Source of the DNA: Streptomyces sp. SAJ15
GTDB taxonomy: Bacteria; Actinomycetota; Actinomycetes; Streptomycetales; Streptomycetaceae
Direction of reading: 5' to 3'
DNA length: 64,000 nucleotides
Assembly: GCF_007595705.1 (NCBI RefSeq)
Contig: NZ_NISY01000002.1
Coordinates: 310,001 to 374,000, forward strand
Each line of letters begins with the position of its first letter. Within the stretch, counting starts at the first letter, position 1. Below are positions 30,122 to 32,301 of this stretch, piece after piece. A program made the position numbers and the translations under genes. The notes beneath the pieces are model-generated. The model made no database searches, was not told where the DNA came from, and saw only the letters and a program-made list of their open reading frames with translations.

Positions 30122-30258
30122 GAAGCCTCCTGGCCAGCCGGCGGCTCGACCCTCGGGGCGGGGCCGCGGGCGTGGCCCTCGACCGCGGGTCGGTGGTCCT
30201 TGGCCGCGCGTCGGTGGTCCGTCCCCGCGGGTCGGCGGCCCGGGTCCGCGGCGCTCAT
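30118..30258 (-). CDS. 46-aa micro-ORF coupled to sulfite reductase and the zinc-ribbon gene
   Basis: This short frame (MSAADPGRRPAGTDHRR) has a strong GAGGAGG ribosome binding site 7 bases before its ATG. Its start overlaps the sulfite reductase stop (ATGA) and its stop overlaps the zinc-ribbon start (ATGA), so it is coupled at both ends. It is Arg/Pro/His-rich with a heptad-like repeat (DHRRAAK, DHRPAVE) encoded by three 21-bp DNA repeats (30185-30241). It has no membrane segment and no recognisable domain. It may be a real microprotein or a translational relay that keeps ribosomes moving between the two larger genes. Confidence 0.55.
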   Translation of the reverse strand: MSAADPGRRPAGTDHRRAAKDHRPAVEGHARGPAPRVEPPAGQEAS

Positions 30259-31949
30259 GCGAGATCCTCCTCGGAGGCGCGGGCCGCCCAGGTGGCGAAC
30301 CGCTCGCCGTCCGCCCGCTGCTCCTGGAAGCGGCGCAGCACCCGCTCGACGTAGTCGGGGAGTTCGGCGGAGGTGACCTTCAGCCCGCGGACCTTGCGGC
30401 CGAAGCCCGGATCCAGGCCGAGGGCGCCCCCCAGGTGTACCTGGTACCCCTCGACCTGGCGACCCTCGTCGTCCAGGACCAACTGCCCCTTGAGACCGAT
30501 GTCCGCCACCTGGATACGGGCGCAGGCGTTCGGGCAGCCGTTGATGTTGATGGTGACCGGCTCGTCGAAGTCCGGCAGCCGCCGTTCCAGCTCGTCGATG
30601 AGCGAGGCGCCGCGCCCCTTCGTCTCCACGATGGCCAGCTTGCAGAACTCGATCCCGGTGCAGGCCATGGTGCCGCGCCGGAAGGGTGACGGGGTGACCC
30701 GCAGATCCAGCGCCTCCAGCGCGGCCACCAGCGACTCGACGCGGTCCGGCGCGACATCGAGCACGATCATCTTCTGCTCGACGGTGGTGCGCAGCCGGTC
30801 CGAGCCGTGCGCCGCCGCCAGCTCGGCGATCTTGGTGAGGGTGGCGCCGTCGACGCGCCCGACCCGGGGCGCGAAGCCCACGTAGAACCGGCCGTCCCGC
30901 TGTCGGTGCACGCCGACGTGGTCGCGCCAGCGGGCCACCGGCTGCTCCGGCGCCGGCCCGTCGACGAGCGGGCGCGACAGGTACTCCTCCTCCAATACCC
31001 GGCGGAACTCGGCCGCGCCCCAGTCGGCGACCAGGAACTTCAGCCGGGCGCGGTTGCGCAGCCGCCGGTACCCGTAGTCGCGGAAGATCGAGATGATGCC
31101 CTCGTAGACGTCCGGCACCTCCTCCAGCGGCACCCAGGCGCCCAGCCGGACCCCGAGCTTGGGGTTGGTGGAGAGCCCGCCGCCCACCCAGACGTCGAAG
31201 CCGGGGCCGTGCTCGGGGTGGCGCACGCCGACGAAGGCGACGTCGTTGATCTCGTGCGCCACGTCCAGCAGCGGCGAGCCGGAGACCGCGGACTTGAACT
31301 TGCGCGGCAGGTTGGAGAACTCCCTGTTGCCGACGATGCGACGGTTGATCTCCTCGATGGCGGGGGTGCCGTCGATGATCTCGTCCTCGGCGATCCCGGC
31401 CACCGGGGAGCCCAGGACCACCCGGGGGGTGTCGCCGCAGGCCTCGGTGGTGGACAGGCCCACCGCCTCCAGCCGGCGCCAGATCTCCGGCACGTCCTCG
31501 ATCCGGATCCAGTGGTACTGCACGTTCTGCCGGTCGGTGATGTCCGCGGTGCCGCGCGCGAACTCCTCGGAGATCTCGCCGATGACCCGCAGCTGATGGG
31601 TGGTCAGCCGGCCGCCGTCGATCCGCACCCGGAGCATGAAGTACTCGTCGTCCAGCTCCTCCGGCGGCAACACCGCGGTCTTGCCGCCGTCGATGCCGGG
31701 CTTGCGCTGGGTGTACAGCCCCCACCAGCGCATCCGGCCGCGCAGATCGGCGGGGTCGATGGAGTCGAAGCCCCGGTGCGCGTAGATCGTCTCAATGCGT
31801 GTCCGCACATTGAGACCGTCATCGTCCTTCTTGAACTGCTCGTTGGCGTTGAGCGGGGTGAAGTGGCCGACGGCCCACTGACCCTCGCCACGGTGGCGCC
31901 CCGCCTTGCGGCGGGACGCGGCGGGAGACGGCTTCGGGGTGTCGGCCAT
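30255..31949 (-). CDS. sir: Assimilatory sulfite reductase (ferredoxin-type, NirA/Sir family)
   Basis: A 564-aa siroheme/4Fe-4S enzyme that reduces sulfite to sulfide with electrons from ferredoxin. GGAGG precedes the ATG (MADTPKPSP). Two nitrite/sulfite-reductase ferredoxin-like half-domains are visible (GGRLTTHQLRVIGEISEEF and VDGATLTKIAELAAAHG). The cluster and siroheme ligands are in ACTGIEFCKLA and NGCPNACAR. The HWIRIEDVPEIW block is typical of actinobacterial Sir. It is the first large gene of the operon, 187 bp downstream of a leader peptide. Nitrite as substrate is the alternative, but the cys context makes sulfite the clear choice. Confidence 0.94.
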   Translation of the reverse strand: MADTPKPSPAASRRKAGRHRGEGQWAVGHFTPLNANEQFKKDDDGLNVRTRIETIYAHRGFDSIDPADLRGRMRWWGLYTQRKPGIDGGKTAVLPPEELDDEYFMLRVRIDGGRLTTHQLRVIGEISEEFARGTADITDRQNVQYHWIRIEDVPEIWRRLEAVGLSTTEACGDTPRVVLGSPVAGIAEDEIIDGTPAIEEINRRIVGNREFSNLPRKFKSAVSGSPLLDVAHEINDVAFVGVRHPEHGPGFDVWVGGGLSTNPKLGVRLGAWVPLEEVPDVYEGIISIFRDYGYRRLRNRARLKFLVADWGAAEFRRVLEEEYLSRPLVDGPAPEQPVARWRDHVGVHRQRDGRFYVGFAPRVGRVDGATLTKIAELAAAHGSDRLRTTVEQKMIVLDVAPDRVESLVAALEALDLRVTPSPFRRGTMACTGIEFCKLAIVETKGRGASLIDELERRLPDFDEPVTININGCPNACARIQVADIGLKGQLVLDDEGRQVEGYQVHLGGALGLDPGFGRKVRGLKVTSAELPDYVERVLRRFQEQRADGERFATWAARASEEDLA

Positions 31950-32061
31950 GGCGGTACGTCCTCCGGGACCTGCGGATGCGGCTGTGACCCGCTCGGGGAG
32001 CGCGCGGCAGGGCGCGACGGGCGGGTGTCACGTGCGAGAAAAAGGGAGAAAGGGGGAGAAA

Positions 32062-32078
32062 CTGCCCTGAAGGGCGCA
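32062..32078 (-). promoter_or_regulatory. Candidate attenuator hairpin between the leader peptide and sir
   Basis: On the transcribed strand GCCC-TTCA-GGGC forms a tight stem-loop whose flanks (CTGC and AG) partly extend it, followed by the pyrimidine-rich TTTCTCCCCCTTTCTCCC. A hairpin followed by a U/C-rich run after a leader peptide is the arrangement expected for transcription attenuation. It is short and no alternative antiterminator pairing was worked out. Confidence 0.35.
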
Positions 32079-32136
32079 GGAAGGCTGGGAGATCGCGGCG
32101 GTGTCGAGGCTGAGCTGCGGGACGGCGCCGGGACGG

Positions 32137-32220
32137 TCAGCGCGCCGGACAGATGGCGCTGGACATGCGGCCTAGGTCGACGTGTCGCCGACTCACCAAG
32201 GCAATTCCAGCTCGCTGCAT
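32137..32220 (-). CDS. Leader peptide of the sulfur-assimilation operon
   Basis: A 27-aa peptide, MQRAGIALVSRRHVDLGRMS followed by SAICPAR. The ALVSRRHVDLGR core recurs in short leader peptides annotated ahead of sulfur-metabolism genes in actinomycetes. The single Cys lies four residues from the end, where ribosome stalling on scarce Cys-tRNA would affect the following RNA structure. It starts 46 bases after a CATAAT -10 element and ends 187 bases before sir. No obvious ribosome binding site is seen. Confidence 0.75.
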   Translation of the reverse strand: MQRAGIALVSRRHVDLGRMSSAICPAR

Positions 32221-32265
32221 GACGGAAGCGTGGCACGGCCCTCTTCGGAGCGTCCACCGCCATCC

Positions 32266-32301
32266 ATTATGTGGACAACACTGTCCCGAATCTCGGGACA
32301 G
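32266..32301 (-). promoter_or_regulatory. Promoter and operator of the sulfur operon
   Basis: On the minus strand a good -10 element, CATAAT, lies at 32271-32266. About ten bases further upstream a perfect 9-bp inverted repeat, CTGTCCCGA-GAT-TCGGGACAG (32281-32301), covers the place where the -35 would be, and no TTGACA-like -35 is present. This fits a regulator-bound promoter for the leader peptide and sir. The same repeat begins 12 bases upstream of the stop end of the GNAT gene's 3' flank, so it could also act as that gene's terminator. Confidence 0.5.

Follow-up and report, generated by a model that had tools for sequence, protein, structure and literature searches.

The window analysed here is a 64,000 nt stretch of DNA from Streptomyces sp. 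SAJ15. On its reverse strand lies a sulfite reductase gene, sir, which is preceded by a short open reading frame:

31949..30255, minus strand: sir, 564 aa, ferredoxin-type sulfite (or nitrite) reductase with the Pfam domains NIR_SIR (PF01077) and NIR_SIR_ferr (PF03460)
31958..31964, minus strand: Shine-Dalgarno sequence of sir, GGAGGAC, assigned from the sequence; its GGAC form is common among relatives
32220..32137, minus strand: leader ORF of 27 codons encoding MQRAGIALVSRRHVDLGRMSSAICPAR*, with Cys as residue 24

The initial annotation had described a 27-aa leader peptide before sir, with a Cys four residues from its end, and a 187-nt leader. The sequence, the score obtained with the NCBIfam model NF042934 and conservation all indicate that the ORF is real; Cys24 is the fourth residue from the end, and 187 nt separate the stop codon of the leader from the start codon of sir, the ATG at 31949. 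With NF042934 (‘putative leader peptide’, ‘cis_reg_atten’) the peptide scored 33 bits over residues 7-24, the curated cut-off being 27, and the sulfur or cysteine gene expected downstream of such leaders is present as sir, which directly follows. A search with Rfam for riboswitches and T-boxes gave no match at gathering score anywhere in the window.

For comparison, 253 sir loci including that of the window were assembled from 80 + 52 further loci and 120 fetched stretches, the last group being drawn from what was left of two ranked lists (80 out of 87 places in one, 40 out of 83 in the other), so that the sample tracks rank lists and is not random. Leaders were detected upstream of sir with a regular expression and then with a profile built from its matches. 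A leader with the same core was found at 244 of the 253 loci, in agreement with the earlier remark that the core recurs in actinomycete leader peptides: 193 of 194 loci in the family of the window (Streptomycetaceae) and 51 of 59 in the remainder of the class, the 51 spanning 14 families by a hand count of family labels. Nine loci gave no leader: two (L030 and L164) are contigs ending too near sir, and the other seven (L268, L276, L279, L281, L283, L284 and L285) are all from outside the window's family. In distant pairs the core had a pS of 0.54 and a pN of 0.28 in the leader frame, whereas the shifted frames reversed the order (pS/pN 0.24/0.38 and 0.27/0.38). Since pS exceeds pN only in the leader frame, selection acts on the peptide in that frame, and these sequence comparisons showed that the conserved core, LVxR(R/L/P)HVDLxRxxSxxC, is under protein-level selection.

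The conserved Cys lies nine residues past the Asp of the HVD core (Asp+9), a spacing shared by 242 of the 244 sir leaders and by 56 of the 57 paralogs located before other genes. Its codon in the window and its conservation are as follows:

32149..32151, minus strand: codon TGT of the putative sensor Cys24; TGT in 242/242 sir leaders and 56/57 paralogous leaders

Taking sir and paralogous leaders together, all 298 with a Cys at Asp+9 use UGU there, a count that is inflated by the relatedness of the loci. In L262 and L272 the Cys is shifted one codon later and is again encoded by TGT. The one paralogous case with a stop at +9, the leader-like ORF L318, carries a TGA precisely at the position of the sensor UGU. 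The use of UGU, a rare codon, opposes codon bias both in the window's family group and in the rest of the class: whole-gene sir coding regions contain 651 TGC and 7 TGT codons, and in the same leaders the ratio of TGC to TGT was 71:9 for earlier and 51:18 for later Cys codons. In 177 of the 244 sir leaders the Cys codon is the only one. Two leaders of one related genus (L297 and L298) have a Cys run in which +8 is TGC and +9 is TGT; further TGT codons occupy +7, +10 and +12. The position and the codon of the Cys are thus conserved among relatives, the opposite of the lack of conservation that the initial annotation had named as speaking against a cysteine-sensing leader, and the invariant UGU probably marks the exact place where ribosomes gauge the cysteine supply. 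To our knowledge cysteine has only one tRNA isoacceptor; if the UGU is a dedicated cysteine gauge, a speculation taken up below, its choice would therefore have to work via decoding itself.

Part of the leader ORF can also form an RNA hairpin:

32158..32211, minus strand: hairpin inside the leader ORF (nt 10-63) with the stems CUGGA..UCCAG and GUCGR..UCGAC

Its fold had a z score of -1.82 relative to dinucleotide shuffles, and 92% of its pairs are kept across 60 family sequences. Covariation of an 11-pair version was not beyond chance (57 of 500 shuffles were as high), whereas that of a 14-pair version was weakly above the shuffles (3 of 500 as high). Compared with synonymous recoding of 42 representatives, the mean z was -2.5 with uniform codon choice, -1.7 with correction for G+C and -0.4 with sir codon usage, so that the verdict on stability depends on the null chosen. 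These modelling results are compatible with a conserved RNA hairpin within the ORF but do not prove one. The rare codons TTG8 and AGT10 are retained in 76 of 76 close relatives, which argues for some RNA-level constraint besides that on the peptide in Streptomycetaceae.

The region upstream of the leader ORF contains the following elements:

32227..32235, minus strand: extended -10 element TGcCACGCT, ending 6 nt before the ATG
32251..32256, minus strand: -35 element TGGACG
32282..32300, no strand assigned: palindrome TGTCCCGAGATTCGGGACA, upstream of the -35 element, candidate regulator site

When the 193 family sequences were aligned at the leader ATG, TGGAC occupied positions -36..-32 (97-99% per column) and TG positions -15/-14, while A-11 and T-7 were each present in 191 sequences and occurred jointly in 190, the expected number being 7.6. 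Among the class leaders, when one base of tolerance was allowed, the -10 pair was found in 44 of 50 usable sequences, compared with 9.3 expected. Given the spacing of the -10 element, transcription is expected to start with the A of the ATG at 32220, and the leader ORF is therefore predicted to be leaderless. The promoter of the initial annotation was misplaced: a sigma-70 scan found no promoter, and the conserved -35 and extended -10 elements are those just ahead of the leader ATG. The hexamer CATAAT (about 32271-32266), which may have been the -10 meant initially, was rejected as such, as it lies in a poorly conserved stretch and the conserved elements sit elsewhere.

A palindrome-like motif was found upstream of the promoter in 82 of the 193 family sequences, in 80 of them at exactly -78, and in none of the control stretches. 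Owing to this fixed position and its absence from the controls, TGTCCCGAGATTCGGGACA, which has no second perfect match in its own genome, makes a good candidate site for a separate transcription factor. A GTCC-GGA-TGGAC block upstream of the -35 element is present in 175 of the 193 sequences. Palindrome and block (together 32252-32300 in the window) keep their position in many Streptomycetaceae and are likely to form a regulator site.

Two features characterize the gap between the leader stop and sir:

31950..32136, minus strand: C-rich, G-poor gap from the leader stop to sir
32079..32036, minus strand: hairpin CTGCGCCCTTCAGGGCAG followed by a 26-nt pyrimidine run

The gap is C-rich and G-poor throughout the sample. 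The mean content was 45% C and 27.5% G, and C outnumbered G at every one of the 240 usable loci, four of the 244 being dropped for a short gap or flank. In the control stretch upstream of the leader the values were 36.7% C and 36.8% G, with C exceeding G in 50%, and C exceeded G in 16 of 29 other gene-start gaps of the window, which were delimited by rough gene calls. Among the 193 family sequences the length of the gap varies between 112 and 279 nt, which makes translational coupling, the other possibility raised initially, unlikely. Consensus folding of 74 relatives with a similar gap length gave no common structure between leader and sir, and no common structure was found in the segment upstream of sir in relatives. 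In many relatives a box, GGTCAGAGCCGC, occurs 44-46 nt from sir, at a nearly fixed distance (about 44 nt in L126, for instance); it was found exactly in 41 of the 193 family sequences and with up to three mismatches in 133, compared with 49 of 193 control stretches. In L305, one of the paralogous leaders, the DNA up to the next gene contains more than 30 consecutive C, possibly an assembly artefact.

On the basis of these comparisons we consider it likely that sir is controlled by a cysteine-responsive, ribosome-mediated attenuator with the 27-codon leader ORF, predicted to be leaderless, as sensor. A 70S ribosome would begin directly at the 5' end of the mRNA. When Cys-tRNA is scarce, the ribosome would dwell at UGU24, a wobble-read Cys codon, whereas with ample Cys-tRNA it would move on and leave the ORF at its stop codon, three codons further; the dwelling at UGU24 would raise sir expression. 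Of the attenuation responding to Cys that had been proposed initially, the cysteine-sensing leader is well supported by the invariant position and codon of the Cys, but the alternative structures were not supported: there was no conserved terminator, and folding at the sir ribosome binding site (RBS) was unchanged whether the ribosome was placed at the Cys or at the stop codon. Several observations speak against an attenuator of this kind. Its downstream half was not found, neither as a terminator nor as an RBS switch; most sir leaders have a lone Cys codon, whereas classical attenuators have runs; and one paralogous leader sits before a cysteine dioxygenase gene, which argues against the idea that low cysteine switches expression on.

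How a dwelling ribosome could affect sir has several possible answers. Attenuation of the trp type would employ an intrinsic terminator at 32079..32036, and the short GC hairpin and the pyrimidine run do exist in SAJ15, as described in the initial annotation. They are, however, peculiar to this strain and do not qualify as a conserved attenuator part. A terminator scan of the window found no intrinsic terminator; the longest pyrimidine run has a median of 7 nt across the 193 family sequences, window included; at least five T within any 8 nt occur in merely 38 of these, and U-rich tails are not common to them. The full leader of the window folds no more stably than shuffled sequences (z +0.82), and neither a conserved terminator nor an alternative antiterminator, as a classical attenuator would have, was detected, which makes this explanation very improbable. 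Translation attenuation of the mycobacterial style, in which leader RNA pairs with the sir RBS and a ribosome stalled at Cys opens the pairing, has a precedent, as an RBS-pairing mechanism is reported for mycobacterial relatives in the accessible part of PMC13236596. The RBS was folded in two sets of sequences: 68 of 76, eight being dropped because no Shine-Dalgarno sequence was recognised, and a second set drawn from a random sample of 90 in the family, of which 82 were usable, and from 51 in the class, of which 46 were usable; those dropped had no recognised start or too short a gap. Pairing of the RBS with the leader above 0.2 was seen in 21 of the 82 family and 20 of the 46 class sequences. 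In contrast, the median pairing of the Shine-Dalgarno sequence with the leader was 0.01 (n=68), and RBS openness was the same for both ribosome positions: 0.487 (Cys) and 0.482 (stop codon) for the family (n=82, mean difference 0.005), and 0.460 at either position in the class (n=46, mean difference 0.000). Sequestration of the RBS by the leader and its release by a Cys stall was accordingly rejected at the level of folding calculation, and we regard this mechanism as unlikely. The output step that we favour tentatively, while giving it somewhat less than an even chance, is Rho-dependent termination: lacking a ribosome close to where it begins, the untranslated RNA of the gap, rich in C and poor in G, would be open to termination before sir. 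Rho loads on RNA of this kind and is encoded in the genome. What keeps this step from a higher rating is that a ribosome at Cys24 would shield only a small part of the gap, covering scarcely more RNA than a ribosome at the stop codon.

The sensing step could also be understood differently. The leader may be a conditional arrest peptide, its core halting the ribosome from within the exit tunnel at the UGU when cysteine or Cys-tRNA is low, in which case one codon would suffice. The fixed spacing between core and Cys, the class-wide protein-level selection on the core and the frequent occurrence of a lone Cys favour this possibility, but the retention of TTG8 and AGT10 indicates that conservation is partly at the RNA level; on balance it is somewhat doubtful. 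It is, on the other hand, most improbable that sulfur control is exerted by the upstream DNA site alone and that the ORF product is a small protein with another job. The conservation of the palindrome and the GTCC-GGA-TGGAC block speaks for such control, yet the same leader core occurs before unrelated operons, whereas a perfect copy of the palindrome is present in the genome at sir alone.

Returning to the attenuator with the leader ORF as sensor, similar leaders elsewhere bear on the signal to which it might respond. Searching the genome with NF042934 revealed six leaders, four above the cut-off and two at 23.3 and 17.6. They are followed by genes for cysteine dioxygenase, a CysM-type PALP enzyme, sir, rhodanese, FMN reductase and a 2OG oxygenase, so the genes downstream of the five paralogous leaders are mostly sulfur-related. 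The NF042934 family was found in 61 of 61 genomes of the genus, with 3 to 16 matches each (E 0.01 or better). In a sample of 149 genomes of the phylum it was detected in 7 at E 1e-4, all within the class, the model being short so that distant members were missed. In other members of the genus the genes that follow such leaders code, among others, for sulfatases, luciferase-like monooxygenases and ABC transport proteins, as seen in a partial survey of 20 hand-chosen ORFs. These contexts are consistent with a common cysteine or sulfur signal. Leaders of the type VERRHVDLVRVASAIC and close forms occur at L098-L106, L109 and L117, with a sulfatase gene downstream in L098 and L117, both of the cases tested; this suggests that the regulon extends to the scavenging of sulfate esters. 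Leaders before cysteine dioxygenase genes (L001, L096, L112, L304, L305 and L306) have the same UGU, the enzyme being Pfam-checked for L001 and L112 and assigned by leader type for the other four. The presence of this cysteine-degrading enzyme is at odds with a simple model in which low cysteine induces expression.

A wider generalization would be that throughout the class Actinomycetes the lone UGU at Asp+9 of HVD serves as a dedicated cysteine gauge, combining wobble decoding with an arrest peptide held in the tunnel and reused before many sulfur operons. We offer it as a speculation that is rather less likely to hold than to fail. Should the attenuator reading hold, a group of sulfur operons in Streptomyces would have a common translational cysteine gauge in addition to any transcription factor. 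As the UGU is invariant, codon decoding could be told apart from peptide effects in ribosome-mediated control. The question is also raised why the cysteine-degrading cysteine dioxygenase bears the same gauge.

Mycobacterial leaders shown to respond to cysteine are reportedly the subject of work by Canestrari in 2020. The accessible text of PMC1262725 (2005) predicts leader peptides with Cys codons before mycobacterial cys operons and suggests Rho for these leaders, which lacked terminators; that of PMC4633059 (2015) describes the detection of mycobacterial cys leader peptides by ribosome profiling. In a Streptomyces lividans reannotation (PMC8079986) the accessible part lists eight leader peptides, none of them for cysteine. 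A literature search, the coverage of which excluded most subscription papers, found no Streptomyces cysteine leader and no UGU rule, and the sole match to a search with the motif string was unrelated. As far as these sources reach, the +9 UGU rule and the predicted class-wide leaderless promoter were not found in print.

The leader itself is a member of an already known kind of peptide, which the NCBI model names. With NF042934 it shares a score above the cut-off, the core, the terminal Cys and the sulfur genes downstream, and no sequence difference was found; the name ‘putative leader peptide’ claims no tested function. The nearest studied relatives are the Cys-rich mycobacterial leaders Ms4527A (NF042936) and Ms5788A (NF042933). 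They have the core in common with the leader of the window; the leaderless form, which is a prediction for the window, is described for mycobacterial polycysteine ORFs in the accessible parts of PMC9031893, PMC9094748 and PMC13236596. Ms4527A, however, has a run of several Cys codons, whereas the window leader has one Cys and scored 28.3 bits with NF042936, below the cut-off of 45. In a related genome (L293) a sir-type gene follows a leader of the Ms4527A family scoring 51.9 against the same cut-off, and the Asp+9 UGU is present both there and in the Ms5788A-type leaders L297 and L298. The trp, leu and ilv attenuators resemble the system described here in having a short leader ORF with an end-product codon near its end and a pathway gene downstream. 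Classical attenuators rely on codon runs and on the charging of tRNA isoacceptors, which a dedicated UGU gauge would not, and the window leader differs from trp, leu and ilv in having neither a codon run nor a conserved terminator and in that the peptide itself is conserved.
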